Source of the DNA: Bodo saltans
Taxonomy: Eukaryota > Euglenozoa > Kinetoplastea > Eubodonida > Bodonidae
DNA length: 25,968 bases
Reading direction: 5' to 3'
Assembly (NCBI GenBank): GCA_001460835.1
Contig: CYKH01002061.1
Span: 3,121-29,088 of the forward strand
The position numbers and the translations under genes were made by a program. How positions within the stretch are numbered: position 1 is the stretch's first letter; each line of letters begins with the position of its first letter. The notes below the pieces were generated by a model, which was not told the origin of the DNA, searched no databases, and saw nothing but the letters and a program-made list of their open reading frames with translations. Below are positions 2-24,652 of this stretch, piece after piece.

Positions 2-592
2 GAAGCGCAGCTCAAACGAAACACCGAGGATATGCAAGGCGTGGAACGAGCCCTGTCGGTTGGCGGTGATGAGCGTCACATTGTGATCTGCCACTCCTTG
101 TTCCCGTGGGTCGCGACAGAATTTGTTCGTAGCTTCTTGTCCACCACCGGGTACGCTGCTGGAGTGAAGTGCGGGCGCGTTCTTATTTGCCCAAGTGACG
201 CAATCTTGCAGGATCCCTCCAACGCCCTTTGCCGCTTAAGCCAAGAGCATGTCGAGGCCGTCACTGGATTTCCCCAAAGCCCTGCGAACTTTTGTAACCC
301 CGTCGTTGCGTACAACACCTGGGAAGCGGAAACGGAGCGTCTGTTCCACATTCCAACCGGTGAGGGCAAATATGTCGCACCTCTGGTTATCGTGTGGGAC
401 GCGGATGACAAGTTATTGGGCAATCCGTGTGCATTTGAGCAGTTTTGCCGCTCCATTCCGTCGCCACACGGACTGATCGTCATGAGCCGCAGCGGACACA
501 TTGGCTCTACAGTGGATCGCTCGCTTGCCAACGTGACAGCCATCCCTTTAGGTCCGGTTTGCGAAAGGACATGCATAAAGTGGAAGCACTGA
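2..592 (+). CDS. Array copy 1: half-length P-loop NTPase-like paralogue, 5' end outside the window
   Basis: The frame is open from the first bases of the window, so the start lies upstream. What remains aligns with the middle of the family: the region before the P-loop, the CGRVLIC strand, an EHVEAVTGFPQ helix, an AYNTW motif and a degenerate Walker B, VIVWDADD. The Walker A GSGKT is replaced by PWVAT (104-118), so the catalytic lysine is lost and ATP binding is unlikely. About 18 residues between Walker B and the SIPSPHG segment are missing. The frame stops 15 residues after ANVT, where copies 3, 5 and 10 also end. The GG-PR lid and C-terminal domain are absent. No internal stop interrupts about 195 codons, so it may be a functional pseudo-NTPase or a young pseudogene. 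Confidence 0.7.
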   Translation, partial: EAQLKRNTEDMQGVERALSVGGDERHIVICHSLFPWVATEFVRSFLSTTGYAAGVKCGRVLICPSDAILQDPSNALCRLSQEHVEAVTGFPQSPANFCNPVVAYNTWEAETERLFHIPTGEGKYVAPLVIVWDADDKLLGNPCAFEQFCRSIPSPHGLIVMSRSGHIGSTVDRSLANVTAIPLGPVCERTCIKWKH

Positions 593-715
593 AACCTTCG
601 CGGGCGTCGTTTTCTAATGGAAAGGGAAGATCGTTTGGTTTGTAAACAGTTTCAGTGTTTCCCACGATCCAAACTATGCTTCCTTCAGATCAAAACACAA
701 CAAGACAAAGAAAAA

Positions 716-752
716 CAACAGCAACAACAACAACAACAACAACAACAACAAC
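716..752 (+). repeat. (CAA)n microsatellite
   Basis: CAA units run from 716 to 752 with a single interruption (CAG) near 719-721. The stretch 722-751 is ten uninterrupted CAA units. It lies in the presumed 3' UTR or spacer after copy 1. Confidence 0.95.
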
Positions 753-984
753 GAGAATACGTAGAGATTTCTACGATTCTATTCTCGACTCCCCTTCTAG
801 AACCAGAGGAGTTCAACAAGCCCACATTTACGTGTGACTGCTAAAGAGTGAACTTGTACTTGGCCCCCCTCCATAAAACCAAATCAAAACCCCCAGAACA
901 GCATAAACGAGAAGCATCGCTCTCCTGCGGGCAAGATGCAGACAAGTGAGATTTTTTAAAGCGAAAGACCCAACCAACCAGATA

Positions 985-1017
985 CTTGATAGTGCGCCCA
1001 GTGATTGCACTATCAAG
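985..1017. repeat. Perfect 11-bp inverted repeat, 11-nt loop
   Basis: The arm CTTGATAGTGC (985-995) is exactly the reverse complement of GCACTATCAAG (1007-1017). The 11-base spacer is 996-1006. The pairing does not extend further outward. It would form a stable hairpin in RNA or a cruciform in DNA. Its function is unknown. Confidence 0.9.
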
Positions 1018-1084
1018 CTACAGTTCCCTCAGTGTTTGCATAGTTCGTGTTGCTTCCGGCTTTGTGCTGCGGAAAAGAACAAGA

Positions 1085-1375
1085 ATGTTTGTGACGTTGA
1101 TGTCTGCCACTTCGTTTGTTGAACAATACACGAATAATGTATTTTTGATGCATTGTGGAAGGGATACCGCACACTTTTTGAACATGATTGGAGCAGGATT
1201 CGCAGCTCGGGGCCCATTGAATTGGCGGTCAACATTGAAGCCCACGTTGTTCATGGAGGCGACAGTCGTCCAACTGGCGTTGTTGTCTGAGAGTGCGAGT
1301 GTAATTCATCCCCATGGAAAATATTTCCATGAAGTAATGCCCTTGTTATTTGACCAGGTATTTGACCACCAGTGA
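1085..1375 (+). other. Open frame of uncertain status (96 codons)
   Basis: The first ATG of a longer open stretch is at 1085. The predicted 96-residue product has no recognised motif, no convincing membrane segment and no resemblance to the array family. It overlaps antisense open frames of similar length, so chance openness is likely. It could also be a fragment of an unrelated gene. I keep it only because it is the longest ATG-initiated + strand frame between copies 1 and 2. Confidence 0.15.
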
Positions 1376-1449
1376 TTCTTAACTCCGTACGCCCATCAGT
1401 GCCGTCTGCCTTCAGGGAAAAATGGTATAACATAACAATATTTTAATAA

Positions 1450-1467
1450 CTGAGTCAAGAGACTCAG
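1450..1467. repeat. Perfect 7-bp hairpin, 4-nt loop
   Basis: CTGAGTC (1450-1456) and GACTCAG (1461-1467) are exact reverse complements around an AAGA loop. This is a compact hairpin about 170 bases upstream of the copy 2 ATG. Confidence 0.7.
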
Positions 1468-1635
1468 ACCAATATGTACGACTTTCATCTCACAAGAAAT
1501 ATAAGTAGACGTTGTGTTTCCGCACTTGTGAAGGTGTGTCAACCAACGCCTTCATATTGGGTGCCAATTGACTATATATACTTAAGGCAAACCATAAACA
1601 TTATCATAGCCAATTGATATCGCTTACACAACTCA

Positions 1636-3849
1636 ATGCGAAAGGTTTTAGCGGAATTTGTGTTGTGTGCTGGACGTCAATCCATCTATGCACACTTTGA
1701 CTCCCGCAGCATGATGTCATCCGCGTCGTGCGGTGACGAACATAAGATCTTGCCTCCCACGGTCCTTTTCAACGATCCCCACACTTGGCCCAAGCACTGG
1801 ACGCAACGTGAAATTGAACGCTTGCTCCGCAGCAATCTCGTGAATCCAGCAGCTCCGCCAAACTACGCGTCACTTGCCACCCTTTTCCATTGCAATGATT
1901 TCAAATCCCTGGCGCTCCTAGTTGGCGCGTACACCAAAACGCCTGCCCCGAGTGAAGTGGACTTGGAACAGAACCTACGAGACAATCTCAACAATGTGTT
2001 AGACAGTGCAGCGATGCCGCTACAGGAGCGATCCAATCAATTGGATACACTCGACATCGAATTGTCACCTGAATCTGAAGGCAGCTTGGATGAACATCGT
2101 GAGGGAGATAATACTGTCCCTCTCGCTCAGAATCCTGGTCGGCGCAATGTTGTCTGTTGCACCTCACCACGCGGCTCAGGCAAGACACAATTCATCAAAC
2201 GGTTTGTTTTTGCGAAGCGTGCGGCAGCAATGAAATACGGACGAGTCATCGTACGCTGCTGCGACAAAACTGCACATCACACGACGAGCACGTCGAAAAG
2301 GTCATGGGTCACACAAGTGCTGGACGATCGTGAAACAACCAGCAGCAATTTGGAAAAGCGGCAACATCTTCAGTCATTAGCAGAGGAGTCGTACAACCTG
2401 CACGCTCGCTCGACAATTGCTGCACTTTGCGAGTTGATACGCGTGCATGTGGAGGCCGTCACTGGCACTCCGCAAGATTTGTCCAAGTATTGTGATCCTA
2501 CCACTGCATACGCAACATGGACCCATGAAACAGCGAAGTACTTTAAAATCGCACCAAACACGAAGTACATGGACCCGCTGATCATCCTTGACACCTGCGA
2601 GCTTCTCGCCGAGCATGACCACAAGTCTTTCACTCACACCACCGGGGCTCCTTACACATTGCTCGAGACATTTTGCCTTGCAGTCCCTGCACTCTACAGC
2701 ATTCTTGCAATAGGGTGCAACGCTGTGATAGGCTCGAAAGACCCAGCGTACTTGGCCATGGCAAACGTGACAGACATCGGACCGCTGGTGCCGCTGAGTG
2801 AGCGCGGCTACGAGAAGGCCCTCTCTGAATCGTGGAAGTACGAGGCTGACTCCGCTCTTCGTGCTCCACTGCATCACTTAGCTGGGGGTGTGCCGCGACT
2901 GTTGCGCCTTGCGTTCATGAAGCAGCCACAAACAATGAGCCTTGCTTGTGGTAGTGTCAATGCGTTCTCCCGCTGCTTTGAGGTGTACTCAGCAGCAGCA
3001 AGGGCGCAGTATCCCGTCCAACCCGCGTGGTTCCCCCAGGCATACACGTGCCTGCTCGCCTCAAGCACCAAAGCTAAGGTGAAGGGTAGTGATACCATTC
3101 CTGTCAACCCTGCGTGGAAGAACATCAAGGCTGATGAAGAGTGGGACTCCCGACGTACGCTTACGTACGACGAAGCGGCAATGATGTCGATGGGCACGCA
3201 CAACCCAGAAACCAACCGCTTCATGGTCCCACCAATCACATTCGGCGACACAGAGGCAGCGATGAGGCCCGGGGCTCCGATACTGCCATCGCAGTTGCAC
3301 CCGTTCCTGAGCGCTGAAGCCACCACTCGTCCAAAGAACACGAGTACTGGTCGCCAGAAGTTTTCGCATTTATTTCTGTACGCGGTGTACGCACGTTACC
3401 TGCTAGCGTTCTGGGAGAACACGAGCAGTCCGTGGGTGTCGCTTACCAAAACATTTGAGGGTGCAGTCCACTCTGATCAGATGGCGTTGCTGGAGGAGTA
3501 CGAAATGAATCTGTCCAGCGGAGTGAAGGTAGTGGGCCAATCTCACTCGACTGAGAATGCAGTGACGTACCTTGAAGGGAATGATTCTTCGAAGGCGTTT
3601 ATTTGGTGCCGACAGAAGCATGGCCGCAACAGCGAGCATTTTGCTGTTCCCCTGTATCTACACAAGGAACCAAACGCATTGACGAACAATGCCACAAAAG
3701 AAATTCTACCTTTCGTTCTTTCACTTCACCAGAACGATGTTGTTACCCATCAAGAGCTCTGTCGAAGCAGGGCCCATAAAAGCACTATTCTTGTCGAGCC
3801 GGATGCAATGTGCAGTGGGAGTCGGCTCTGGCTTGACTCCAATGGTTAG
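1636..3849 (+). CDS. Array copy 2: full-length STAND/AAA-like P-loop NTPase, unknown function
   Basis: This 737-residue protein shows the complete family layout. The start is the first ATG of the frame and gives the leader MRKVLAEFVLCAGR. A DPHTWPKHW motif follows, then the N-terminal helical region. Walker A is SPRGSGKT with G180-SGKT-184 (Lys183). The GRVIVRCCDK strand follows. Walker B is PLIILDTCE with Asp319 and Glu322. Next come a sensor-like AIGCNA strand, VTDIGPLVPLSERG and the lid motif GGVPRLLRL. The C-terminal domain carries LPSQLHPFL, the YAVYARYLL helix, SPWVSLTKTFEGAV, AFIWCR, FAVPL and the end motif MCSGSRLWL. All catalytic landmarks are present, so NTP hydrolysis is plausible. 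Substrate and role are unknown. A 65-nt block (2971-3035) is identical to copy 4. Confidence 0.92.
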   Translation: MRKVLAEFVLCAGRQSIYAHFDSRSMMSSASCGDEHKILPPTVLFNDPHTWPKHWTQREIERLLRSNLVNPAAPPNYASLATLFHCNDFKSLALLVGAYTKTPAPSEVDLEQNLRDNLNNVLDSAAMPLQERSNQLDTLDIELSPESEGSLDEHREGDNTVPLAQNPGRRNVVCCTSPRGSGKTQFIKRFVFAKRAAAMKYGRVIVRCCDKTAHHTTSTSKRSWVTQVLDDRETTSSNLEKRQHLQSLAEESYNLHARSTIAALCELIRVHVEAVTGTPQDLSKYCDPTTAYATWTHETAKYFKIAPNTKYMDPLIILDTCELLAEHDHKSFTHTTGAPYTLLETFCLAVPALYSILAIGCNAVIGSKDPAYLAMANVTDIGPLVPLSERGYEKALSESWKYEADSALRAPLHHLAGGVPRLLRLAFMKQPQTMSLACGSVNAFSRCFEVYSAAARAQYPVQPAWFPQAYTCLLASSTKAKVKGSDTIPVNPAWKNIKADEEWDSRRTLTYDEAAMMSMGTHNPETNRFMVPPITFGDTEAAMRPGAPILPSQLHPFLSAEATTRPKNTSTGRQKFSHLFLYAVYARYLLAFWENTSSPWVSLTKTFEGAVHSDQMALLEEYEMNLSSGVKVVGQSHSTENAVTYLEGNDSSKAFIWCRQKHGRNSEHFAVPLYLHKEPNALTNNATKEILPFVLSLHQNDVVTHQELCRSRAHKSTILVEPDAMCSGSRLWLDSNG
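2971..3035 (+). repeat. 65-bp block identical to 7796-7860 in copy 4
   Basis: The block encodes CFEVYSAAARAQYPVQPAWF and matches copy 4 at every base. Beyond it, similarity stays high to about 3093 and then falls to normal paralogue divergence. Bases 3028-3075 also match copy 6 (12445-12492) at 47 of 48 positions. It is best explained by gene conversion. Confidence 0.85.
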
Positions 3850-4141
3850 GTTACAGGGCTTTTTTGAGTGCTCGTAGTGGACTTCGCTCCACACGCTTTT
3901 CTCCTCTTCCCTTTTCGGACACTTCCCTGCACGCTAATGGGTACTGAATGTGCAGTGCTTTACACATGTCCAAACATATCGTGCCGTTCTTCGCGCGGCT
4001 CGTTTTTACTGTGTTTATCGCTAGCCTCCTCCCTTTCTTCCTCTCCCCAGTTGGGTTGAGCGTTAACGCACACACCATTCCATAGTGCAACGTATCATAA
4101 GGGAAGTGATATTCTCAGGCGGCGTTTCTTAGGTGCCATCT

Positions 4142-4281
4142 GAAGTATTCCGTCTTTCCCATTTTCACGTAACCAGAAGCAAACTACCAGTCACCAAAAG
4201 CGGCAAAGGCGGCTCCTTTGAAGGCACATGGTGATCGTCGAAGCGGACGCAGTGGGAGTTGGTTGCCGGTCGGCTTGCTAG
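4142..4281 (+). pseudogene. Relic of the C-terminal end of an array paralogue
   Basis: The frame from 4228 reads MVIVEADAVGVGCRSAC then stop. This parallels the last residues of copy 2 (ILVEPDAMCSGSRLWL) and the family end signature of a hydrophobic strand, Asp/Ala and MSS. At the DNA level GCAGTGGGAGT recurs in both. Upstream, from 4142, GAAGTATTCCGTCTTTCCC parallels the copy 2 stretch that begins at about 3700, with a frame change in between. Only about 45 codons are recognisable. It appears to be the stranded tail of a lost or recombined copy. Confidence 0.5.
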
Positions 4282-4759
4282 GTTAGCACTGGTGGTTTTG
4301 CAGACCAAGCTGCGCGGGTGGTGTGCACGCCAACAAAACGCAAGGTTTTTTCCCCTACCCCTTCCCCCTTTTTTCGCACACGTACAGTACACATATACTG
4401 TAGAATTCCGCATTCTGTGCAGTATTGAAACACTTTGCACAACTGTTCTGAGCACAGTTCATAGCGTCCTCCCTTTCTTCTACCTCACCCTAATGTGATG
4501 AAGTCAACGAACGGTGCGCACGTTACAGCACTCCATGTTGTTCCTGTGTTCGCAACAACAGACGGAAGGTGACCTTGTGGCGGAGAGCGTTTCATATCTT
4601 CTATGTTTCGAACATGCCAAACAGTACATTACAAGTGCGGTGTATGCCTTTAGCTTGTTGAAAGAGACATGCAATATTCTTCGTCGTTCGCTCCCTACTC
4701 TTTTAGAGACGAAAATACAACACATTTTGCTGCACTAGATTACACTAGCCAAGAACAGG

Positions 4760-4780
4760 CTAGAGTAGACTAGAGTAGAT
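4760..4780 (+). repeat. Tandem 10-bp repeat CTAGAGTAGA(C/T)
   Basis: Two abutting units, CTAGAGTAGA-C and CTAGAGTAGA-T, lie about 80-100 bases upstream of the copy 3 ATG. Related GTAGAC/AGAGTAGAT words occur at the equivalent position before copy 4. Confidence 0.7.
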
Positions 4781-4820
4781 TTCAACTCATCAAACTAAAA
4801 AATATATATACCACAAGCAC

Positions 4821-4831
4821 TTTTTTTTTAG
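4821..4831 (+). promoter_or_regulatory. Candidate spliced-leader acceptor for copy 3 (T9-AG)
   Basis: Nine T residues followed directly by AG, 25 bases before the ATG at 4857, with a short (CA)n tract (4835-4847) in the presumed 5' UTR. This is the clearest acceptor-like site in the window. It supports the copy 3 start. Confidence 0.55.
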
Positions 4832-4856
4832 AAGCACACACACACACTGAGACAAC

Positions 4857-6010
4857 ATGATGCGTCGGTTTGCTTCCAAAAAGCTTCGTCGGTTCGCAGC
4901 TGTGACAGGCAACACGTCAACCTCACCACATGGGACTGGCATGACACAGTCTTTGAAATCGTTTCTGCTCACTTTGTGCGCAGAAGTGGTGCGGAACAGG
5001 CGCATCAATTCTCAGCGCTCTGACAAAAGAGACAACCGCTTTCCCGTGAATGTTGTTGAGTACAGCGATGCATCGACGTGGAAGTCGGATTGGACTGCTC
5101 ATGACATCAAGCACCTCCTCCATAAACACCTTTTGAACCCTGCTACAGCTCCAAATTACAACTCACTCAGTGTGTTGCTAAGCGAGGGGCACATCGAAGC
5201 CATACAGCACCTCCTGCGTGAATGCGTCAAGATTCCAAAAAATCCGAAAGAGATGTCAACTGCGGAGTACATCGACGAATCTTTGAAGTATGACTCCTTG
5301 AAGAACTCCTCGCGCACCTCGTCCCTCCCGAATATTGACAGCACATTGGATTTGATCGAGAGTGGCTTGTCTCCTCGTCCAGGCTGCAGCGAGCGTAACC
5401 TTGTATTGTACGACTCGCCATTGCAGTGGGTAACGATGCACATCGTGAAACGTTTTTTATCTGAGCGACGCGCAAATGCATTAAGGAACGGACTTGTGAT
5501 TGTGTGCTGTGGCAACACGCTCCCGCAGAAGGAGTTTATTTATCGATTGTTTGAGGCGTATTTGACAAATTCGAAGGGATGCTCGACCCAAGATGCCGTG
5601 TGTGAACTCATCCGCACGCATGTGGAATATGTCACCCATTGTCCTCAAGATCCGTCCAACTATGGCAACCCCCTAGTTGCGTATGCAACGTGGAAACGCG
5701 AAACAGCACGTCATTTTAACATCCCAGGGAAGATGGATGAACCACTGATTGTTCTCGTCGAGAAGTGTGTGCAATTCTCTCACAGTTTAAGCACGCAACA
5801 CTCGTTCATAAATCGACAGGAGAACCGTACACAGTGCTGGAGGCACTCTGCCTTGCGATCCCGTCGCCACAGAGCATTTTAATGATTGGACGCAATGCAA
5901 AGGTCAACGCAACGGATCCAACGCTTTTGGCGCAAGTGAATGTGACCAACGTGCCCCCATTCCCGCGCCCCTCGCCCCCAGAGCAAACAAGAACAAAGGT
6001 GAGAAAGTGA
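4857..6010 (+). pseudogene. Array copy 3: half-length paralogue with frameshift and lost Walker motifs
   Basis: The ATG at 4857 gives a strongly basic, acid-free leader, MMRRFASKKLRRFAAVTG. Family homology runs through the N-terminal region, CELIRTHVEYVTH and AYATWKRETARHF. The Walker A GSGKT is replaced by QWVTM (5424-5438). Near 5757-5765 the frame changes: the first frame runs on to a stop at 5882, but homology continues in the +2 frame through HATLVHKSTGEPYTVLEALC to NVTNV and stops at 6010. About five bases (5757-5761) would have to be extra, or one missing. The Walker B Asp and Glu are not preserved in either frame. As in copies 1, 5 and 10, the lid and C-terminal domain are absent. This is a pseudogene unless the frameshift is a sequencing error. 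Confidence 0.8.
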
Positions 6011-6562: not shown

Positions 6563-8599
6563 ATGTTCCGCATCGTTCGTAACCGACATCGGCTTACTCC
6601 AAGCGCAGCCTACGCTACCCAACGTATGTTCAACAGCAGAGGAACACCATGGAATCGTGACATATCATCCACGGACCCCAGCACGTGGCCGAAGAGCTGG
6701 AACGCCTCGGATATCGAAGGCTTTCTCCGTGGTAGCCTTCTCAACCCCGCTGCAGCACCAAACTATAAATCGTTCGAGACACTACTTTCGTCTGGAGATC
6801 TCAAGTCCCTAGCGCAGCTGCTCAAGGCATACGTCAAGCCGCCAGCACCAAGCGAGGTAGACCTGGAGCAGTACCTCGCGCGGCACGTGAACAACGTCGT
6901 TGACAAGGCCTCGATGCCTGCTCAGGAACGCCTACAACATCTGACAGTTTTGGACAAGGCCCTCGCACCCAAGCCAGGAAGCGAACTGCGCAATATTGCG
7001 TTCATCTCCTCACCGCGTGGCACCGGCAAGACACAGTTCTTGAAGTGGTTTGTGTTTATGAGGCGCGCGGAGGCGATGAAATACGGCCGAGTGATTGTGC
7101 GGTGCTGCGACAAAACGTCGCATGACACAACCGACCGACGCCGCCCGTCATGGATTACACGTGTATTGGACGACCGCTGTGCGACTGCGACGCAAAAGCA
7201 AAACCCTTCAGCAGCAACCGATGCCATTGCTGAAGGCCTCTGCGAGCTGATTCGCACGCACGTGGAATCTGTCACCGGAGACACCCAGGACCCAGCCAAA
7301 TACAACAATCCACCTAATGCATATGCAATGTGGATGAGTGAAACCGCACGGCACTTTAAGATTCCTGCGAACAAACAAAACCTAGACCCGCTCATCATCC
7401 TTGATACGTGCGAGTTGCTCGCTGAGCACGACCACAAGTCACTTGTGCACGCACCCTCTCGAAAGCCGTACACATTGCTCGAGGCATTTTGCCTTGCTGT
7501 TCCAGCACCCTACAGCATTCTTGTCATTGGATGCAACGCACAAATCGGCCAAACAAAAGAAACGGAAGCAAGTCTTCTTGCAAGGGCAAACATCAAGAAC
7601 GTTGGGCCGCTGCTGCCCCTCACCGAAAAGGGATACCGCAGCGCCATTACTGAGTCATGGAAGGTGGATGTCGACGACGCAACACTTGTCCCCCTCCACA
7701 ACTTGACTGGAGGCGTGCCGAGGCTACTTCGGCTCGCCAACATGAATCAACCCCAGACTATGAGCCTTGCTAGTGGTAGCGTCAATGCGTTCAACCGCTG
7801 CTTTGAGGTGTACTCAGCAGCAGCAAGGGCGCAGTATCCCGTCCAACCCGCGTGGTTCCCACAGGCATACACGTGCTTCCTCGCCTCAAGCACCAAAGCT
7901 AAGGTGAACGGCAGCGGCATCATTTCTGTCAAGCCCGAATGGAGAAAGACAGCAGGGGCTCTCACGTACGCGGAGGCAACGACGCTATCAATGGGCTCGT
8001 ACGACCCTGATAAGGGGCGATTTATGGTGGCGCCTATTACGTTTGTGGACGCCGTCGTGACGAAGCCCGACGCACCGATTCTGCCATCGCAGCTGCATCC
8101 GTTTCTGAATGCTGATGTCGTTGCTCGTCGCAGTGCGCCGTCGGTTGATAGCGCGTTTGAGGTTGCGTTCCTCTACGCGGTGTATGCCCGCTACCTTCTG
8201 GCGCACTGGGAGAATACCTCTAGCCCGTGGGTCTCCCTTGCAAAGGTGTTCGAGGGTGCAATCCCCCCAAAACAAGTGCCTATGCTAGAACGGTTCGACG
8301 TTGACATGTCTAAAGGTCTACCGGCGACTACGGCTACAGTTATGGAAGTTGGTGAAGTGCACTTGACCTGCCGTCGGAACAACATGAAACGTACTTCCCC
8401 TCTCATCGAGATGCCGTTGCTACTGAAACGTCAAGACGCCCAACTTAAGGCCAAAGGTACAGCGAAGGTAGGGTACCGCGTGGCATCAGATGCACCGTTC
8501 CTGTTGTCAGTGATCCCAAAGGCTTCAACGGACAACGAGGGTGTTGTGTTTCTCGATGCGGATTTGATGAGCAGCATTAGTTGGCTGAAAAGCAGGTAA
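6563..8599 (+). CDS. Array copy 4: full-length STAND/AAA-like P-loop NTPase, unknown function
   Basis: A 678-residue complete member and a good reference copy. Its leader MFRIVRNRHRLTPSAAYATQ is Arg-rich and free of acidic residues, as expected of a mitochondrial presequence. The N-terminal motif is DPSTWPKSW. Walker A is SPRGTGKT with Lys156. The strand GRVIVRCCDK and the helix CELIRTHVESVTG lead to Walker B PLIILDTCE (Asp281, Glu284). ILVIGCNA, NVGPLLPL and the lid GGVPRLLRL close the NTPase core near residue 400. The C-terminal domain has LPSQLHPFLN, YAVYARYLLAHWENTSSPW, EMPLLLKR in place of the usual FAVPLQL, and the end motif MSSISWLKSR. The AYIWCR motif is poorly kept, so the C-terminal domain is diverging. 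It shares a 65-nt identical block with copy 2. Confidence 0.93.
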   Translation: MFRIVRNRHRLTPSAAYATQRMFNSRGTPWNRDISSTDPSTWPKSWNASDIEGFLRGSLLNPAAAPNYKSFETLLSSGDLKSLAQLLKAYVKPPAPSEVDLEQYLARHVNNVVDKASMPAQERLQHLTVLDKALAPKPGSELRNIAFISSPRGTGKTQFLKWFVFMRRAEAMKYGRVIVRCCDKTSHDTTDRRRPSWITRVLDDRCATATQKQNPSAATDAIAEGLCELIRTHVESVTGDTQDPAKYNNPPNAYAMWMSETARHFKIPANKQNLDPLIILDTCELLAEHDHKSLVHAPSRKPYTLLEAFCLAVPAPYSILVIGCNAQIGQTKETEASLLARANIKNVGPLLPLTEKGYRSAITESWKVDVDDATLVPLHNLTGGVPRLLRLANMNQPQTMSLASGSVNAFNRCFEVYSAAARAQYPVQPAWFPQAYTCFLASSTKAKVNGSGIISVKPEWRKTAGALTYAEATTLSMGSYDPDKGRFMVAPITFVDAVVTKPDAPILPSQLHPFLNADVVARRSAPSVDSAFEVAFLYAVYARYLLAHWENTSSPWVSLAKVFEGAIPPKQVPMLERFDVDMSKGLPATTATVMEVGEVHLTCRRNNMKRTSPLIEMPLLLKRQDAQLKAKGTAKVGYRVASDAPFLLSVIPKASTDNEGVVFLDADLMSSISWLKSR

Positions 8600-9840: not shown

Positions 9841-11001
9841 ATGATGAAACGAATCACCTCTGGTGGACGAGCGGCGTCTGTTGCTACTGCCGCTACGCTT
9901 GTTCCACAGTGCGCCAATCCCAACCCTGTGCCACCAACGACGATGGCTCACAGCGTCTCGTTGGGACGCAGAAGCACCGACTCAAGCTTGTTGCAACTCG
10001 CTAGAGCAACGGTCGACGTTCCTGCGAAGCACTACAACCCAACCACGTGGCCCAAACACTTCACGGCAGACGACATCAAACGACTGTTGGTCGGCCACCT
10101 CTCCAGTGCATCAACTCATCCACAGTACGATTCCCTAGCGATGCTGCTGCACAGTGGTGATACCGATTCCCTGACTACGTTGGTGAGGGTGTACACCATG
10201 CCTCCTTCATCGTCGGAAGGAGTGGTGGTGGAACAGTTCTTGAACAAACGGCTGGGCAACAACGTCAACAACAACAACGACGACGAGCTCTCGAAAGCTG
10301 CTGCTACGATGCCAATGCACGAGCACACCAACGAACTCTTTACCATCCTGGAGAAGGCGCTGCCACCTTGGCGCGGCAGTGAAAAGCGTAACATTCTGTG
10401 CTGTACCTCCTCACTAGGCAGCAGTAGTGGAACAACACAATTCGTGAAGACATTTGTGTCCTCGCGTCGACACGATGCAGCCAAGTATGGCCGCGTGATT
10501 GTCTGTCGCTGCAATCTGCCATCGGAGAAGGAGATGCCATGGATGAGGCACGTCTTTGAGGAGGAGCAGTTGACAAACGCAATGGGTGGCGCTCCAAACA
10601 CCACAATGTATCGAGGCCTTTGTGAGCTGGTTCGTTCACACGTGGAGTCGGTAACCGGCTGTCCGCAAGACCCGTCTAAGTACTGCGATCCACAAACAGC
10701 GTACGCAACGTGGATCAGCGAAACGGCGTGGTACTTTGGTATCCCACCAAACGCACATGATATGGAACCGTTGATCGTTCTTGCCAGCTGTGAAGAGCTG
10801 GCTGATCGTAAACACAGGTCACTTGTGCATAGATCGTCCGGCAAGCCATACACGCTCCTCGAAGCGTTTTGCCTCGTGGTTCCCTCCCCGCACAGCGTAT
10901 TTGTGATTGGAAGCGATGCTCACATCGATACAACAGATCCTGTAATGCTGTCGATCGCAAATGTTAGAGTGCTGGAGCTTGGAGGCGTTATCCGCCAATA
11001 G
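9841..11001 (+). CDS. Array copy 5: half-length paralogue lacking Walker A and B residues
   Basis: A 386-residue uninterrupted frame. The ATG at 9841 gives the basic leader MMKRITSGGRAASVATAATL. The family motif NPTTWPKHF, the N-terminal region, YGRVIVCRC, CELVRSHVESVTGCPQDPSK and AYATWISETAWYFGIP are all well kept. The nucleotide-binding residues are not. Walker A is GSSSGTT (from residue 193), with Thr198 in place of the lysine. Walker B reads LIVLASCEEL, with Ala315 in place of the aspartate. The frame stops 11 residues after IANV, before the GG-PR lid, so the C-terminal domain is absent. Good conservation elsewhere without any stop argues for a maintained pseudo-NTPase rather than a dead gene, though recent truncation is possible. 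An Asn-rich patch lies near residues 140-146. Confidence 0.82.
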   Translation: MMKRITSGGRAASVATAATLVPQCANPNPVPPTTMAHSVSLGRRSTDSSLLQLARATVDVPAKHYNPTTWPKHFTADDIKRLLVGHLSSASTHPQYDSLAMLLHSGDTDSLTTLVRVYTMPPSSSEGVVVEQFLNKRLGNNVNNNNDDELSKAAATMPMHEHTNELFTILEKALPPWRGSEKRNILCCTSSLGSSSGTTQFVKTFVSSRRHDAAKYGRVIVCRCNLPSEKEMPWMRHVFEEEQLTNAMGGAPNTTMYRGLCELVRSHVESVTGCPQDPSKYCDPQTAYATWISETAWYFGIPPNAHDMEPLIVLASCEELADRKHRSLVHRSSGKPYTLLEAFCLVVPSPHSVFVIGSDAHIDTTDPVMLSIANVRVLELGGVIRQ

Positions 11002-11128: not shown

Positions 11129-11232
11129 TAGCACCATCAGAGCAGACAGTCCACTAAATTTATACAGAACTCAAAGGAGAGTCGGGGGTGAATTTCACTA
11201 CAATAGTTTTGGGTGAGCAAAGACCGCTGACC

Positions 11233-13227: not shown

Positions 13228-14227
13228 CTTTTTCACGTAGCAAAACACTTTGCAACCTGCATTGTTTTACTCTGAATGATTAAGCATCTCACTTATTGCA
13301 CCCGCACAGGGAACACAGAAAACTGATGTGTGGTGGTTGCGCCATTATATTTTTCGTTACCGGTATGTTGAAATCAGAATAGAATCCTTGCAACACATTA
13401 TTCATGTTCGTTCGAATGTTCGATCGCAATAAAAAAAGAAAAAAAGAAAAGCATGAATGTTGCCTTTTTCCCCGCTCCCCTCTCTTGTGAGTGCTCCCCT
13501 TCCAATCATTTGCACTGTTCTTCGGAATAGCACCTTCAATCTATCAATCAATGAGATCGTGGTTTCCTTCCTCGTTTTGTTGCTCCTGCTTTTTTTTTTC
13601 ATTTTAAAGAAAAAAACACTTAGGTCATCGATCAGTGACCCGCGGCTACTAGCGGAAAGATGCCTGTGGTGAAAGGACTTTTTGTGGCTCAGTACAAGTG
13701 ATTTTTAATACCAGCCATCAGCAAGGCAATAAAAAAGTACAACACGTTGTCATGCTCGTAACGCATTATCATGAATGTTTACTTTTCTTCCGCGCTGATT
13801 CCCTTCCACTCTCTCTCTTTGTGCTTCCCCCCAATGCAATGCATTTGCGCCATTCTACGCCCTCAGTGACCCCTTGAAAAAGAAAGCGGTGAATAAGTGC
13901 AGCGATGAGCTCGTTTTACAACGCGCCTCAATCCCAATTGTTGTCTTCTTTTTTTTTATTCCTTGTTTGGTGTTTTTTTCTTGGCGTGTGAAATTCTCAT
14001 CAACTGATGCAAATCAAACAATAGTGATGTAGTCCGTTACCAAGACTGCCTGGTGTTTGTCGAAAGTTGCGAGAAACGTTTTTCTGGACTACCACATCTT
14101 TCTTCTTCTTGAAGGTTATCATCATCTTCGAGCAACAATGCAAAATTTTAAACACAAAACGTATTCTCCACTATCTTTTTTGGAGAAGCTCCTCTGTCTG
14201 GAGTGGATCATCGTTCTGCTACACAAG
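13228..14227. other. Intergenic region, copy 6 to copy 7, with a diverged direct repeat
   Basis: AT- and pyrimidine-rich spacer without a gene that I can support. The stretch around 13426-13545 (CAATAAA, A-rich, CATGAATGTT, pyrimidines, ATTTGCACTGTTCT) recurs in diverged form at 13724-13860 (CAATAAA, CATGAATGTT, pyrimidines, ATTTGCGCCATTCT). This suggests an old local duplication of about 300 bases. Confidence 0.5.
14097..14114 (+). promoter_or_regulatory. Candidate spliced-leader acceptor for copy 7
   Basis: TCTTTCTTCTTCTT then GAAG, with the AG at 14113-14114. The first ATG downstream is 14138, in frame with copy 7. If this site is used, the protein would begin 30 residues before the homology-supported start at 14228. 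Confidence 0.4.
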
Positions 14228-16261
14228 ATGTTTCGTGTGGCTTTGCCGAATTTTTTGAGCCATTCTACTGTTGACTACTACAGCCCAAGAACGTGGCCAA
14301 GAAACTGCACTTCAGCTGAGATCAAAGAACTTCTCAAGGACCACCTTATCAATCCGACGTCGCCCCCAAATTACGAAAGTCTCAAGCAACTACTCGACCT
14401 CGAAGATTTCGTCAATATTGAAATTCTCGTGCAGCAGTACGTCAATAAACCTCCGCCGCGTGAAATGTCAGTTCCCCAGTACTTACACTGCCATTTGAGC
14501 AAATCGTGCGACGATGCTGCGATGCCGCTCCAGCAGCGCACTCGTCAACTGGACGTGTTGGCCAATCTTGGTGCAACCAACAATGCATGCAACAACGTCG
14601 CGTTCTGCCACTCGCCACGCGGCAGCGGTAAAACACAATTCGTCAAGTGCTTTGTGTCCACACGGCACGTAGCCGCAGCCAAACACGGGCGCGTGATTGT
14701 ACGGTGCTGCGGGAATGCGGCGCACAGCCCCCAGGCACCGTGGATCAAAAAGATCATGGAGGACTGTAAGGGCTGCGATCCCAACAAGTTACGGGATGAG
14801 GCCCCAAGTCCCCGGGGGGTGACAGCGTTTCTGTTGTCATGTCTTGTTCGAGTCTTAACTCTGTGCAAGAGAAGTCCTTCAAGTGAGAAATCAATGAAAG
14901 CGTCACCTGTTGCACAAGGGCTGTGCGAGATGATACGTGCACACGTGGAGTTGGAGACCGGCAATCCACAAGACGTGTCGAAATATTCCACTCCTCAAAA
15001 AGCATACGAAACGTGGAAACGCGAAACAGCACGATTTTTTAAGATTTCACCTAGGACGCAGGGTGTGGAGCGCGACTAGTAGGAACTGTGGACGCTCTAG
15101 GAACGCCTCGTACTTGTATTCAGGGAGTTCGTGGTCGGCAGCCCGTTCGGAATGTGTAATGACCTCCGTAACACGGAGCGACAAGGTGTAGGTATAGCGT
15201 ATAAACAGTAACCTACGTTGCGATTTCAGCTTCCACGCGAGTTGTAACCTGGTGAGAATGGCGACTCGTTTCTCTCAAAACTACGCCGTCAGGTGCTTAG
15301 AACCTCCTGGAGAGTGCTTGAGTTGCTTCACGGACTTTACGTCCGGCGACTGTTGTATTGCTTGACTGGGGGACTGCCGCGCTTGCTCCGTTTGCAGATA
15401 CCAACTGCGACGACCCTCACCCAGTGCTTTGGCCTATGCAGAGAAAGTGCTCAGTCGCTATTTCCAATCGCCCAACGCTCGATCGCATACACGTGCTTGC
15501 TCGTTTCCAGCACGAAGGCTCGAGTAAAGGGGAGTGACGTGGTTGCAGTGAATCCTGCGTGGAGGGATCCTGCTGATCATGCCCGCACATTCGACGACGC
15601 CATGTCACATTCTATCGGAACGCATGATCCGGTGAGTGATCGCTTTCATGTGGCGCCCATTACGTTTGTAGATCCGATGTGTCCGCGCGACGCGCCTATC
15701 CTGCCGTCACAGCTACACCCGTTCCTGAAGGAGGACATTGTTAGCCGCTTTGGGATGCATACTGCTGCGGAGGGTACAACACTGTTTGGGAGGATATTTC
15801 TGACTGCACTCTATGCGCGGTACTTGTTGACATCCTGGGAAGACACCACCACGCCGTGGGTATCGTTGGCGAAGGTGCTCAATGGTGCGGTCCACCCAAC
15901 TCGAGTGCCCATCTTGGAGCGTTATCAAGTAAACCTGTCCAGCGGCGTAGTGAACGCAACAGTGGACGCAACACAACGGCGAAGAGCTAGGGCCGTGGAA
16001 AACGCGGTGACCTACATGGGGAGGACGTCGGAGCCTCAGTGCGCGTATATTTGGTGCCGCGACGTGGGAGGACGCGGCGCAACGTTCGCAGTGCCGCTGC
16101 AACTGCGGAGTGGCGGCATATTGAACGCCCGCAATCCATCACAGTTGCTGCTGATCGTTCATCGTTTGAATAGCGAAGAAGTGGCAAACGAGAATCGATT
16201 CGTAGCGATCAACGCAAGCTCCATGAGTTGCATCGATTGGCTGGAGTCAACAACGTCGTGA
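14228..16261 (+). pseudogene. Array copy 7: broken paralogue with intact N-terminal half and C-terminal domain
   Basis: The ATG at 14228 gives the leader MFRVALPNFLSHST before the SPRTWPRNC motif. An upstream in-frame ATG at 14138 is possible. Walker A is intact (SPRGSGKTQF, GSGKT at 14621-14635), as are GRVIVRCC and CEMIRAHVELETGNPQDVSK, with an extra segment of roughly 40 residues before CEMIR. The frame then stops at 15077-15079, just where Walker B should begin. Family homology resumes by about 15300 in another stretch of the same frame with LTGGLPRLLRL and continues to SMSCIDWLESTTS at 16261, including LPSQLHPFL, YARYLL, AYIWCRD and FAVPLQL. Walker B, the LLEAFC helix and the GCNA strand are missing from the sense strand. 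The intervening 180 bases seem partly inverted. It is non-functional as a single protein; the C-terminal part has no ATG at its start. Confidence 0.8.
15072..15240 (-). other. Probable inverted segment inside copy 7
   Basis: The antisense strand is open for about 75 codons across this gap. It contains LRVTEVITHSERAADHEL followed by PEYKYEAF, which parallels the copy 2 segment ANVTDIGPLVPLSERGYEKA followed by SESWKYEAD, including the shared 11-mer AAGTACGAGGC. This is the part of the protein that the broken copy lacks in sense orientation. The match is gapped and by eye only. Confidence 0.45.
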
Positions 16262-19538: not shown

Positions 19539-21734
19539 ATGCACAACACGATTTTTCAGCACCTTTGCGCCTTTGCGTGTGAGGCTCGTACGATCACGAG
19601 CCACAATTTTTATCGTTTCTTCGGAGTTTGTTGCTCCGCTTCGCACGGACTTCGTTTGTGGACTAACGAATGCAAAGGGGTACGCTATCACGACCCCCGT
19701 ACATGGCCACGTCACTTATCTGAAGCTGACATAAGACGTCTACTCAGTGACAACCTCATTTGCACAGGCGGTGTGTCACCGAACTACAAGACGTTCTGCG
19801 AACTCCTTCGCATGGGGGATACTGCCTCCTTGTCTGTGCTGCTTGAACACCATGTCATGCCACCACGTTCGCCGCATGTGGATGTGGATCAGTACCTCGC
19901 ATTGTGGTTGGGCAATCACAATAGCGGCGCAGCCATGGTGCTCCAAGAGCGTGCGCTTCAGCTTGGTTCGCTACGCAGAGCACTTGCACGCCAACCTGGA
20001 AGCGAGAAGCGGACCATTGTCACGATCAGCTCGCCGTGTGGCAGCGGCAAAACACAATTGATCAAGCGGCTTGTGTCGGTAAACCACGTCGACGCGACGA
20101 AACGTGGACGTGTGATTGTCCGTTGCTGCAGCACGACAGCCGCAGACAAAGACTCGGAAAGATCCTCGTGGCTGACCGCCTTGTTGACGAACCACTCAAT
20201 CGACGCAGCACTGTGCGAGCTTGTCCGCACACACGTCGCGTCTGTCACCGGCCATCCGCAAGATCCGTCCAAGTACTGCGACCCTCAAGCTGCTTACGCA
20301 ACGTGGATGAGCGAAACAGCACGATACTTCAGAATTCAGTCACAGGAGGAGTCCATGGACCCCGTCATCATTCTCGACACATGTGAATTTCTTGCCGATC
20401 GTGACCATACGTTTCTTGTGCACAAATTCAATGGCAAGCCATATTCATTACTTGAAGCATTTTGCCTTGCTATTCCTTCACCCTACCGCATTCTGGTCGT
20501 CGGGACTACCGTTCGCATCGACACAACGGACCCAATTATGCTTGCCATCACAAATGTATTTCACATCGGACCTCTTCCCCCGCTCAGCGAGCAAGGCGCC
20601 ATGAACGCATTCAGGGAATCTTGGCAAACGGAAATAAGCTCTGATGTTGCTCGGCTGCTCTTCCATTGGGCTGGTGGAGTCCCACGATTACTCCGGCACA
20701 TTGCACATGCAAATCACCTTGAGTTTCTTCATCGAGCAGAGCAAGATGCACGATCAACTGGGCACATCACAAGTCGATTTTCCTTCGTTTGGCTATCCCA
20801 GCGACTTGCATCTTCGCTCCATCTCCAGCATCCGCATCTCGCCGACGACGACGCAATGTTTGCAATCGCATACTCATGCTTGCTAGCCTCAAGCACGAAG
20901 GCCAAAGTAAAGTGTAGTGATCGCATTGCTGTCAACCCTGCGTGGAGGGATCGAAATCCTCACCATCATGCTCGTCGTCTCACGTACGGTGAAGCGATGG
21001 TTTGCTCGATAGGCCCCCAACATATGCTCGCCGACAACAAGCACCGAGATAACGTCTGGCGGAGTTTCGGATCGTATGACCCTTGCACGAATCGCTTCAT
21101 TGTCCCACCTATCACGTTTGTCGACGAGTTGGTGACGAGGCCTGACACACCGATCCTCCCATCGCAACTGCATCCGCTCCTTAACGCCGAGTTCGTTGAG
21201 AAGTTTGATAACATCCAGCTAATTGATCACGAACAAGTTTTTATTAAGGCGTTTCTGTACGCGGTGTACGCGCGTTATTTGCTCGCGCACTGGGAAGACG
21301 ACACCACTCCGTGGGTCTCACTTGCGAAGGTGTTCGAGAGTGCTGTCCACTGTGATCAAGTGTCAATCCTTGACCGTTATGAAGTGAACCTTTCAAGCGG
21401 CGTGACGATGCGCAAACAGCACATTTCGCAACACGGTGCAGCAGAAAATGCTGCCACATACTTTGATGAGGGCGCAGCATTCCTGTGGTGTCGCGAAAAG
21501 GAACAGACAGGCGTTACGTTTGCCGTGCCGCTGCAACTGTGGAATGACCTTCACGTCCGGGGTGGTCAATTCATCTGCACGAAAAAAGAATTCGCAGCAG
21601 ACATCGCAATCAAGAACGCCCCTGTTGTGCTACTCGTGTGCCAACAAATGAGTGACTGTCTCAAGGCGTTAGCAACAGATGCGGCGGTCATGATGATCAA
21701 TGCTTCGGCGATGAGCAGTATTTGCTTACATTGA
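19539..21734 (+). CDS. Array copy 9: full-length STAND/AAA-like P-loop NTPase with internal insertions
   Basis: The first ATG in frame is 19539, which gives 731 residues. The leader MHNTIFQHLCAFACEARTIT is less basic than in the other copies. DPRTWPRHL is followed by the N-terminal region. Walker A is SPCGSGKTQL with Lys171; Cys replaces the usual Arg. GRVIVRCC, CELVRTHVASVTGHPQDPSK and AYATWMSETARYF precede Walker B PVIILDTCEFL (Asp280, Glu283). The lid is GGVPRLLRH. Two insertions distinguish this copy: one after the lid, with extra Leu/His-rich sequence before AYSCLLASSTKAKV, and one of roughly 22 residues splitting the SIG-x-YDP segment near 21010-21070. The C-terminal domain keeps LPSQLHPLLN, YAVYARYLLAHWED, PWVSLAKVFESAV, FLWCREK and FAVPLQLW. 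The end motif is cut short as MSSICLH. Confidence 0.92.
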   Translation: MHNTIFQHLCAFACEARTITSHNFYRFFGVCCSASHGLRLWTNECKGVRYHDPRTWPRHLSEADIRRLLSDNLICTGGVSPNYKTFCELLRMGDTASLSVLLEHHVMPPRSPHVDVDQYLALWLGNHNSGAAMVLQERALQLGSLRRALARQPGSEKRTIVTISSPCGSGKTQLIKRLVSVNHVDATKRGRVIVRCCSTTAADKDSERSSWLTALLTNHSIDAALCELVRTHVASVTGHPQDPSKYCDPQAAYATWMSETARYFRIQSQEESMDPVIILDTCEFLADRDHTFLVHKFNGKPYSLLEAFCLAIPSPYRILVVGTTVRIDTTDPIMLAITNVFHIGPLPPLSEQGAMNAFRESWQTEISSDVARLLFHWAGGVPRLLRHIAHANHLEFLHRAEQDARSTGHITSRFSFVWLSQRLASSLHLQHPHLADDDAMFAIAYSCLLASSTKAKVKCSDRIAVNPAWRDRNPHHHARRLTYGEAMVCSIGPQHMLADNKHRDNVWRSFGSYDPCTNRFIVPPITFVDELVTRPDTPILPSQLHPLLNAEFVEKFDNIQLIDHEQVFIKAFLYAVYARYLLAHWEDDTTPWVSLAKVFESAVHCDQVSILDRYEVNLSSGVTMRKQHISQHGAAENAATYFDEGAAFLWCREKEQTGVTFAVPLQLWNDLHVRGGQFICTKKEFAADIAIKNAPVVLLVCQQMSDCLKALATDAAVMMINASAMSSICLH

Positions 21735-22170
21735 GCTGCTTTTTCGTTGCCTCCACCCTTGAGATGATTCCTTTATTATTTTTAAAACTATTTTTTTGCA
21801 ATTGCCAAAAAGTGACTTGGGAATGAGTAACGCTGCTGTTTTTTTTTTTTTTTTTCCCCCATTGCGTGTGTGTCTGCTTGTGCTTTTCGTGTCACTCCGT
21901 CAATATACCTGTTCCCCACTGCCGTGTCTGCCTTCGCAAGCACAGCGCCCCTGAGCTAGTGTAAACCTCAGGCAAATAAAACAAGAAAACGTGTTGGCTA
22001 AGGGACATCATGCACTGCAATGTCCCCTTCGCTTTCCTTTTCAACATGCGAAATACGCTTCTCTAATTATCAACAATAAATAATAAGCTTGACATGCCGT
22101 GTGCACTGTGAGCCGCCTCCGATATCTTTTCTACTACTTTCCATCGCTCTTACGAGAGTCACATATTTTG
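21735..22170. other. Intergenic region, copy 9 to copy 10
   Basis: It contains a T18-C5 run (21839-21861), a 7-bp hairpin with GGGACAT (22002-22008) and ATGTCCC (22020-22026), AATAAA words near 21975 and 22074, and the copy 10 acceptor tract. No gene is visible. Confidence 0.6.
22123..22156 (+). promoter_or_regulatory. Candidate spliced-leader acceptor for copy 10
   Basis: A long pyrimidine-rich tract (TATCTTTTCTACTACTTTCC onward) ends in CGAG, with the AG at 22155-22156, about 14 bases before the ATG at 22171. It favours that ATG over the upstream open GTG codon at 22099. Confidence 0.45.
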
Positions 22171-23241
22171 ATGCTGCGCATTCGAGTTGTTCGCGGCTAC
22201 AACGCAATGGTTCCTTCCCACCGAAACGCCCACGGCAATACATTTCCAACGCCGCTACTCCTTCAGCAATGCAGATATGTCGTAGGTGGTGATCGTACAC
22301 ACAACGACTATGAGTACTGGAATCCCTACACGTGGCCAATGACCTGGTCTTCGTCTGACATCAAACATCTCCTCAGCAGGAATCTGTTGGACTCGGGCAA
22401 CCCGCCGAATTACGATTCCATGTCGACGTTGCTTGGCAACAATGATATCAGTTCTTTGGAGTGGTTGGTGCGCGAGTATGTCAAGCCTCCTCCCCCACGT
22501 GTCGTTGATGTTGCGAGCTATTTGCTGGAGCACCTAAGCTCCACCGCTCATTGTGCCGAAATTCCACGTCGAGAACAAGAGAAACTGTTGGCGCTATTCG
22601 AACTTGGGCTGTCTCACAGAATCGGAAGCGAAAAACGCGGGGCTGCGTTGTGTCACTCGCGCCGAGGCAGTGGCAAAACGCTCCTCGTGAAAGACTTTGT
22701 CAATCATAAGCGTTCGGAAGCGATGACGTGTGGCCGTGTCATTGTGCGGTGCTGTGACGTAACGACACGCGGTAACCCCCAGCCATTGTGGCTCACGAAA
22801 GTGCTGCAAGATTGCAAGCAGAATCAACAGTCTGGAGGGTCGTCGAACTCGACAGATGCAGGTTTATGTGAATTGATTCGTGCACACGTTGAGTCCATCA
22901 CCGGCTATCCGCAGAATCCATCGCAGTATATCACACCCAACGACGCTTATGCAACATGGAAACGGGAAACGGCGTGGTGGTTTGGGATTCCTCCAGCCAA
23001 GGAAAACGTAGACCCGCTGATCATCCTTGACACGTGTGAGTTACTGGCTGAGCGTGAGCACAAGTTCCTTGAACATGCGGCTTCAGGAATCGCCGCAAAA
23101 ACGTCGTACACGTTGCTCGAAGCGTTTTGCCTCGCGATACCGTCGCCACATGGAATTGGCTTTGTCGGTTGCAACGCGACGTTTGACGACCGATTTTCCT
23201 TGACTTTGGCAAACGTGACGAATATTGGACCACTTAATTAA
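22171..23241 (+). CDS. Array copy 10: half-length P-loop NTPase with intact Walker motifs
   Basis: A 356-residue uninterrupted frame from the ATG at 22171. The leader is MLRIRVVRGYNAMVPSHRN, Arg-rich and free of acidic residues, and similar to that of copy 11. NPYTWPMTW starts the conserved region. Walker A is SRRGSGKTLLVKDF with Lys169. GRVIVRCC, CELIRAHVESITGYPQNPS and AYATWKRETAWWFGIP lead to Walker B PLIILDTCELL with Asp287. The protein ends cleanly at LANVTNIGPLN then TAA. The lid and C-terminal domain are wholly absent, and no homology follows downstream. Unlike the other half-length copies it keeps both Walker motifs. It could be an independent N-terminal-only NTPase, or a truncation too recent for the active site to decay. 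Confidence 0.85.
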   Translation: MLRIRVVRGYNAMVPSHRNAHGNTFPTPLLLQQCRYVVGGDRTHNDYEYWNPYTWPMTWSSSDIKHLLSRNLLDSGNPPNYDSMSTLLGNNDISSLEWLVREYVKPPPPRVVDVASYLLEHLSSTAHCAEIPRREQEKLLALFELGLSHRIGSEKRGAALCHSRRGSGKTLLVKDFVNHKRSEAMTCGRVIVRCCDVTTRGNPQPLWLTKVLQDCKQNQQSGGSSNSTDAGLCELIRAHVESITGYPQNPSQYITPNDAYATWKRETAWWFGIPPAKENVDPLIILDTCELLAEREHKFLEHAASGIAAKTSYTLLEAFCLAIPSPHGIGFVGCNATFDDRFSLTLANVTNIGPLN

Positions 23242-23471
23242 GAATCAACTTATTCGTGGAACCGCAACAGGCCTACTTTGTTTTGGACTTGACACAGCAA
23301 CAAACGTTTGAGCTCATTTTCTTATTAGTATTCCATTTTCATGTGTTTGGTTACCAAACGTAGAACCGTGTTTGTCCAGTTTCCCAGATGAGTTGGAAAT
23401 AAACAATGAGCCGTGTTCGTCGTTTCAACAATGAAGCGATCAAACAAACAAACAAACAAGAAACGTCCAAT

Positions 23472-23494
23472 TTCCAGCTATGCGGTAGCTGGAA
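23472..23494. repeat. Perfect 9-bp inverted repeat, 5-nt loop
   Basis: TTCCAGCTA (23472-23480) pairs exactly with TAGCTGGAA (23486-23494) around TGCGG. It is followed by AATTAATTTTTTAATTTTTTT, so the stem plus T-run resembles a hairpin-plus-U-tract. Confidence 0.85.
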
Positions 23495-23856
23495 TTAATT
23501 TTTTAATTTTTTTGAAACAGAAACGAGACGATAATCGCTCAGTCACAATACAGCGCATTTGTTATGCACGTGAGTGCATGTTTGAACTCAGTCGTAACGT
23601 CAACACTACTGGATATCTGTGTTTTCACCCTCGTCTTTTTTACTCCTGCAAATGATGTGAAGATAAGAGAACTTTCTTTTCTTTTTGTTTGATGCCTTAC
23701 ACAGAAACGAATCCAAGAAAACGAGATTGTTGGTTCTTGCATTACTTTACCGTATTTTCCTTATCATTTATTTTTCAAAAATATCTTTTTGATCGCACTC
23801 TTCCATAACATGACTTCACCACTATGAGGTCGTTATGACACCCAAGACGGAATGTG

Positions 23857-23881
23857 TTTCCTCCCTGTGCTGTTCTTGCAG
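23857..23881 (+). promoter_or_regulatory. Candidate spliced-leader acceptor for copy 11
   Basis: TTTCCTCCCTGTGCTGTTCTTGCAG is a strong pyrimidine tract ending in CAG at 23881. No ATG occurs between it and the copy 11 ATG at 23960, so it supports that start. The promoter-side signals seem intact although the gene is broken. Confidence 0.5.
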
Positions 23882-23959
23882 TGCGTGAACTGGGCGTTTT
23901 GTACTTAAGGTGATTTTTTCTTGTTGTTAATTTGCGCTGCATCAGACACCCGTAGCAAG

Positions 23960-24652
23960 ATGCGCGTCAGAGTGGTCAGTGCCTGTGGTGCACACCCCTC
24001 CATTCAGCGCTTTTTTTCCAACATGTTTTCGGCCACCTTGCCGCGTCTGTGCGCGAGTGTGAAACCCGTCTACTACAATCCGCGAACGTGGCCCAAGCAC
24101 TGGGCAGCATCAGACATACAAAATCTCCTTGAAGGTCACCTCTTGAATCCAAGCGACGCACCAAAAATTTATGAATCACTGAAGATCTTCCTCAATAGCA
24201 GCCATTTAGATAGTGACTTGATGAGTTTACACATCCTGGTGCGCCATACAATCAAACCTCCGCCACGTAGCGAAGTTGATGTGGAACGCTACTTGCGCAA
24301 ACATCTGGATCCCAATTGTGATAATGTCGAGATGAGGCTTCAAGAACGGGCACCTCAATTGGAAAAGGCAAGCGCCTAGTTGCGAAAATCACCCGGAAGT
24401 GAAAAGCGCCAAGTTTCGCTGTGTTATTCGCCACGAGGCAGCGGTAAGTCTCAGTTCTTGAAATCGTTTGTCCATGAGAAGCGCTTGGAAGCGATGAAAT
24501 GTGGGCGAGTCATCGTCCGTTGCTGCGACTTAGCTGTGCAAACGAAGGTATTGTTATCACTGCTTGACTTGAAAAAAAAGGAGCGTTGTCCTCGCTTGCT
24601 CAACTGCTTTTTTATTCTTTTGATTTTCCTTCTTTTGACACGTTTTCATTAA
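23960..24652 (+). pseudogene. Array copy 11: paralogue with an in-frame stop, homology ends after Walker A
   Basis: The ATG at 23960 gives the basic leader MRVRVVSACGAHPSIQRFF, then NPRTWPKHW and the N-terminal region with VDVERYLRKHL. A TAG at 24377-24379 interrupts the frame in the middle of the stretch before the P-loop. The same frame then continues with PGSEKRQVSLCYSPRGSGKS (Walker A, AAG at 24446-24448), KRLEAMKCGRVIVRCCD and loses homology at about 24540. The remaining codons to the stop at 24652 are Leu/Phe-rich and look like translated pyrimidine spacer. Walker B, lid and C-terminal domain are absent. This is a pseudogene by nonsense mutation and truncation; readthrough would still give only the Walker A half of an NTPase core. 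Confidence 0.8.

Follow-up and report, generated by a model that had tools for sequence, protein, structure and literature searches.

Positions 2-24652 of a 25,968-nucleotide stretch of the Bodo saltans genome (assembly GCA_001460835.1, contig CYKH01002061.1, positions 3,121 to 29,088; the window) hold a tandem array of P-loop NTPase genes and gene remnants in two forms, a long form (L) with a lid and a C-terminal domain behind the ATP-binding core and a short form (S) that stops just past that core. We tentatively read the array as part of a lineage-specific tandem family of mitochondrial STAND/ORC-like ATPases with pseudo-ATPase partners. We are far more certain of the fold class and of the anatomy with two forms than of the role.

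Array, architecture and core fold

We performed tblastn with copy 4 (L4 in Table 1) as the query and found eleven related segments in the window, arranged head to tail and all on the + strand, the other ten matching copy 4 at an E value of 8e-13 or better. This agrees with the eleven-copy array given in a preliminary description of the window, and the motifs quoted there were found in the copies. That description had also assigned one architecture to all eleven, which did not hold: five are intact long genes (L2, L4, L6, L8 and L9, with 737, 678, 664, 730 and 731 amino acids counted from their listed ATGs), one is a broken long copy (L7), four are short (S1, S3, S5 and S10) and lack the lid and C-terminal domain, and one is a fragment. 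The frames examined are long and are not interrupted by introns.

The 29-kb contig that contains the window belongs to a genome of 29,294,288 bases and 934 contigs. A search of this genome for the family returned at least 58 matches, and among the matches listed 58 of 58 lie on the + strand of their contigs. Grouped by hand, these give at least about 44 copies: 11 in the window, 6 on contig C650, 7 on C831, 5 on C829, 6 on C16, 3 on C587 and 6 solitary broken copies; this count is a minimum, since the search scores best candidates only and covered the readable parts of the genome. Arrays on the five other contigs show the same mixture of long, short and broken copies, and the many broken copies across arrays bear out the continuous turnover proposed earlier. 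Seventeen long copies are open over their full length (18 were listed, one being dropped as a short copy read through), two of them as halves of fused frames.

Upstream of the core lies a helical N-terminal domain with the motif TWPKHW..DI..LL..PNY..LA.LL. The long-form core carries the Walker A motif SPRGSGKT and the Walker B motif LIILDTCE, followed by the lid motif GGVPRLL, and all 17 intact long copies retain GK[S/T] and a D..E/D Walker B. AlphaFold2 (AF2) modelled the core as a P-loop fold, and Foldseek and VIA matched it to ORC and STAND folds, including the STAND sensors CED-4, Apaf-1, NRC and Avs3/4. We scanned 25 members against Pfam (E up to 10, with filters that drop most matches above 0.1). 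Any of the members matched 17 families in total, with weak matches to AAA_16, NACHT and ATPase_2 in 4-9 of the 25 (best E 6.8e-4); bit scores, where displayed (seven proteins and one member), fall below the curated cut-offs. A profile search of the PDB (E up to 10) gave two matches only, at E 0.56 and 2, and PADLOC and NCBIfam searches with five proteins each gave nothing better than E 0.025. The Foldseek and VIA results and the weak Pfam matches support the STAND/AAA-type core of the preliminary description, and the modelled core resembles a P-loop NTPase of the STAND/ORC class.

The C-terminal domain had been described as matching nothing recognisable, and we likewise found no match, either in Pfam across the 25 members or in Foldseek with a poor model. 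Nearly all of residues 382-571 have a predicted local distance difference test score (pLDDT) below 50 in the AF2 model, so that a winged helix there is neither visible nor excludable; modelled alone, the domain has a mean pLDDT of 49 and a best Foldseek E value of 2.1, which carries no information. Its end (copy-4 residues 601-678) is variable, with a mean pair identity of 0.28 versus 0.55-0.57 in the core. Each long copy in the window also carries an insert behind RVIVRCC in the middle of the P-loop core (copy-4 residues 191-225) that varies in length and sequence (mean pair identity 0.23) and is a candidate specificity surface.

Short forms, selection and kinship

Short copies have the N-terminal domain and core of the long form without its lid or C-terminal domain. 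Homology to copy 4 ends at residues 345-356 in the window and at 339-359 in open short copies elsewhere (tblastn), directly behind the strand ANVTNIGPL. The gap between S5 and L6 is only 231 bases, too short to conceal the decayed remains of a C-terminal domain of ~1 kb. Read by eye, the Walker A lysine is retained in 17 of 17 long versus 4 of 13 short copies (Fisher P 5e-5); SPRGSGKT, as quoted in the preliminary description, stands as a long-form feature, but of the window's four short forms three have lost GK[S/T].

Contigs C16 and C587 each carry a short copy that continues in frame, across 9-12 bases, into a long copy; the fused open reading frames have 1033 and 1002 codons (L038:392-3490 and L019:2387-5392). 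Because the two fused genes are sisters in both their S halves and their L halves, a single fusion event was probably inherited by both contigs. In a 33-row tree built on the N-terminal domain and core, the S and L labels require 2 changes versus 10.0 with shuffled labels (0 of 500 shuffles). With five broken or partial rows removed, the free 28-row tree requires 5 changes versus 8.2 (8-9 of 500), and constraining the short copies to one clade raises the likelihood by 5.8 (p-AU, the approximately unbiased test, 0.62). With its higher likelihood, the constrained tree, and with it a single origin of S, is the best one obtained, though it falls short of proving that S is a clade. In gene order across six contigs, excluding contig-end fragments and the window fragment, S follows S once versus 3.8 times expected (P 0.02) and L follows S 10 times versus 7.7 expected (P 0.10).

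We compared 19 pairs of copies, which share 42-68% amino-acid identity over aligned codons. Five of the 19 pairs have saturated dS; for the remaining 14, where dS is finite, the ratio of nonsynonymous to synonymous divergence (dN/dS) is 0.15-0.36, somewhat lowered by the exclusion of poorly aligned stretches. Five of the pairs with finite dS are short-form pairs, at 0.16-0.36. The two fused genes form the youngest of the compared pairs, with a dS of about 0.6 and a dN/dS of 0.32 in the L half and 0.36 in the S half. Simulated neutral drift put ~4, 9 and 12 stops into the S5 and S10 frames at 0.1, 0.3 and 0.5 substitutions per site; the real frames contain none. The identities and the dN/dS ratios indicate old, constrained genes, and we rejected assembly duplication for these 19 pairs, the most alike pair having 68% identity at that dS of about 0.6.

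These results bear on the possibility that short copies are plain truncated pseudogenes and that only the long form matters. The Walker A lysine is indeed lost in 9 of 13 short copies, and in C650:1351-2052 the site sits at a frame break; frames are broken in S3, C650:716-2052, C831:5229-6047 and C829:5608-6526. Yet short copies tend to group as a lineage and not beside their long neighbours (more weakly in the 28-row tree), S5 and S10 are open where a neutral frame would have collected ~9-12 stops at 0.3-0.5 substitutions per site, the five short-form pairs have low dN/dS, and S and L are fused in frame on two contigs. We therefore consider this explanation doubtful. Because of the fusion on two contigs and the constraint on both coding sequences, we infer that S may instead be a pseudo-ATPase partner of L.

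The nearest kin of neighbouring window genes lie in another array (L9 with C650:12027, L8 with C650:9430, L2 with C650:6671). When the core and the C-terminal domain were each given a tree of their own, five pairs, these three among them, had starred support in both trees. This indicates that the arrays are in part old block duplicates; for the supported pairs, the two trees gave no hint that domains had been shuffled.

Presequence-like N-termini and possible roles

In several long and several short copies, a basic stretch without acidic residues starts at a methionine mostly 38-74 residues upstream of TWPK, for example MRRLAPLLRRSFGLSATSMCRSG, MMRRFASKKLRRFAAV and MRLAARRLLPHTATRTAS. Basic composition without acidic residues is typical of mitochondrial presequences. 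By a single rule, based on composition only and used for family and background alike, 20 of 29 family frames are presequence-like and 9 fail, versus 1 of 23 background frames, which may include chance frames; judged on the first methionine alone, the counts are 19 of 29 and 1 of 23. As background we took all complete + strand frames with 300 codons or more (250 or more counted from the first methionine) at eleven flanking or flagellar-rod loci, and three of 32 family frames were excluded (C650:716-1390, C650:14836-15894 and C641). Most of these N-termini are presequence-like, and their composition suggests mitochondrial import.

A mechanism consistent with these features can be proposed. The N-terminus would direct the protein to the mitochondrion (kinetoplast), the lid and C-terminal domain would relay an ATP-dependent state to a target, and S, usually with a dead Walker A, would act as the pseudo-ATPase partner of L. 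Most likely, the proteins would use an ATP switch to bind a mitochondrial ligand that varies, either a nucleic acid or a protein, and the birth and death of copies would track change in that ligand. Amplified, fast-evolving kinetoplastid families are known mainly from cell surfaces and RHS genes. If mitochondrial addressing is true, the turnover of a nuclear array may be sustained by rapid change of something in the kinetoplast, and conflict between kinetoplast and nuclear genomes becomes a directly testable question. In addition, the family offers a natural experiment on how an ATPase and its presumed pseudo-ATPase partner are split and fused.

A role in conflict, offered as an inference in the preliminary description, remains one here. 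One specific form of it, between nucleus and mitochondrion, is a long shot: an amplified set of imported L and pseudo-ATPase S, in constant turnover, would recognise variable kinetoplast DNA, guide RNAs or selfish mitochondrial transcripts and silence them; it would make the family a protist counterpart of plant restorer-of-fertility clusters, with an ATP-driven switch replacing pentatricopeptide repeats (PPR). Restorer-of-fertility-like PPR genes offer an analogy of lifestyle, as nuclear families acting on mitochondria in what the portion of the literature available to us calls an arms race; no sequence relation to the array family is claimed. These PPR genes are clustered, with turnover, and PPR repeats bind RNA without a P-loop.

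An alternative is a cytosolic NLR-like recognition family. Here L would be a STAND sensor, its variable C-terminal strands binding giant-virus or bacterial-prey ligands, and the basic N-termini would be incidental. The fold matches to CED-4, Apaf-1, NRC and Avs3/4, the variable C-terminal end and the birth-and-death array with its many broken copies all fit. However, none of the 17 Pfam families matched by the 25 members is an LRR, WD, TPR, ankyrin, death-fold or TIR family, presequence-like starts occur in 20 of 29 frames, and viral contigs yielded no relative by the patterns used, which makes this alternative unlikely. Unlike STAND proteins (NACHT, NB-ARC/AP-ATPase, Avs) and ORC/Cdc6, the array family has its own N-terminal helical domain and its own C-terminal domain; neither a repeat superstructure nor a known effector domain was seen, and no displayed match exceeds a curated Pfam cut-off. 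We also noted a likeness to DAP3/mS29, since one mitoribosomal chain (6rw4_X, which we take to be the P-loop protein mS29) was found at Foldseek rank 39 with E 0.035; however, no DAP3-named profile is among the Pfam matches of the 25 members, and neither of the two PDB profile matches is mitoribosomal.

Relatives, copy inventory and neighbouring loci

The preliminary description had raised trypanosome RHS genes as a parallel. The RHS/Crinkler (CR) class combines an NTPase, a helix-turn-helix and a restriction-endonuclease-like domain, as far as the available part of PMC5289972 describes it, and the array family resembles it in being an amplified P-loop NTPase family with a C-terminal domain behind the NTPase. 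We therefore weighed whether the family is a diverged branch of this class with a nuclease site decayed in most copies. The order of parts is similar to that in the same portion of PMC5289972, an F[E/D]...D...QLR pattern is present in copies C831:6310-8727, LF16 and LF587, both low-confidence AF2 models have a helix and then strands at the C-terminal end, and a second P-loop family in the genome shows, by eye, a clearer FE..AD..QLK arrangement. Against this, the putative catalytic residues, in columns picked by eye, are unconserved (D in 5 of 17, Q in 6 of 17, K in 1 of 17), the C-terminal domain model has no structural match (best E 2.1), and a profile comparison with the second family produced an alignment confined to the P-loop region (probability 4.5%, E 0.009). 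Neither PF07999 nor any Crinkler-named family is among the Pfam matches of the 25 members; nor is a Crinkler/ubiquitin-like header, in a library not checked for a header model. A genome search for PF07999 gave 0 matches, though no control genome gave any either. The presequence-like N-termini are a further difference from this class. We consider a diverged CR branch quite improbable.

We rejected RHS membership, which lacks sequence-level support in the Pfam scan and genome search for PF07999, the C-terminal nuclease domain, a motif guess that failed in the column counts, and homology to the second family through the C-terminal domain. A prokaryotic or viral origin was also rejected, as scans of prokaryotic and viral contigs with short peptide patterns, which miss distant kin, found no relative; as far as those scans reach, the lineage-specific amplification proposed earlier is upheld. 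We found no paper on the family in the open-licence literature, and a term search of the main texts of two Bodo saltans genome papers, as far as these were available (PMC4728078, PMC2621209), returned neither "P-loop" nor "NTPase"; the family is seemingly undescribed.

Table 1. Copies of the array family in the window
Copy	Position	Strand	Features
S1	2..592	+	Short form, 5' end beyond the window; Walker A lost (SLFPWVATE)
L2	1636..3849	+	Intact long form, 737 aa (amino acids); sister gene C650:6671-8854
S3	4857..5962	+	Short form, frame break near 5756; presequence-like start MMRRFASKKLRRFAAV; Walker A lost
L4 (copy 4)	6563..8599	+	Intact long form, 678 aa; presequence-like start MFRIVRNRHRL; final ~80 residues divergent
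S5	9841..11001	+	Short form, open frame of 386 aa; start MMKRITSGGRAAS; insertion disrupts Walker A
L6	11233..13227	+	Intact long form, ATG 11233 (GTG at 11188 is a bacterial-code call); start MRLAARRLLPHTATRTAS
L7	14057..16261	+	Broken long form; open parts 14057-15079 and 15293-16261 in the same frame, five in-frame stops between
L8	17088..19280	+	Intact long form, ATG 17088; sister C650:9430-11622
L9	19539..21734	+	Intact long form, ATG 19539; sister C650:12027-14333
S10	22171..23241	+	Short form, open; GKT kept; start MLRIRVVRGYNA
Copy 11	23960..24652	+	Fragment, in-frame TAG at 24377; homology stops after RVIVRCC

The second P-loop family encodes proteins of about 1020-1090 amino acids (L040:817-3870 on C641 and L051:19-3276 on C682) with the motifs VSGETGSGKTTS, VIDELG and LSRNPRM. 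Its C-terminal part, by eye, looks like an RHS/Crinkler-type nuclease (GFESMMCSLLYLH .. FADVIV .. LLLQLK). It has 24 matches in the genome, many partial or broken, with two intact frames seen, and its Pfam matches are weak AAA matches only. Two of the six solitary broken copies of the array family (L023:1137-1586 and L024:1020-1885) lie 0.3-0.5 kb downstream of its two intact genes, a pairing that perhaps reflects one ancient segmental duplication.

In searches of the genome for other sequences, PF05149 (the flagellar rod family, presumably euglenozoan) gave nine matches versus none in 14 control genomes; a flagellar-rod protein had no match in the PDB at E 1e-10, and two spliced-leader patterns gave 0 matches. 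The solitary copy on C840 adjoins a Ser/Thr-rich repetitive frame of 879 codons (L029:2-2638) without a Pfam match, a possible member of the large surface families that free-living kinetoplastids are reported to have. Finally, a ClpB/Hsp100-like gene (L033:2953-5459; Clp_N, AAA_2, ClpB_D2-small), split over two overlapping frames, lies about 4.4 kb upstream of the broken array-family copy on C451.
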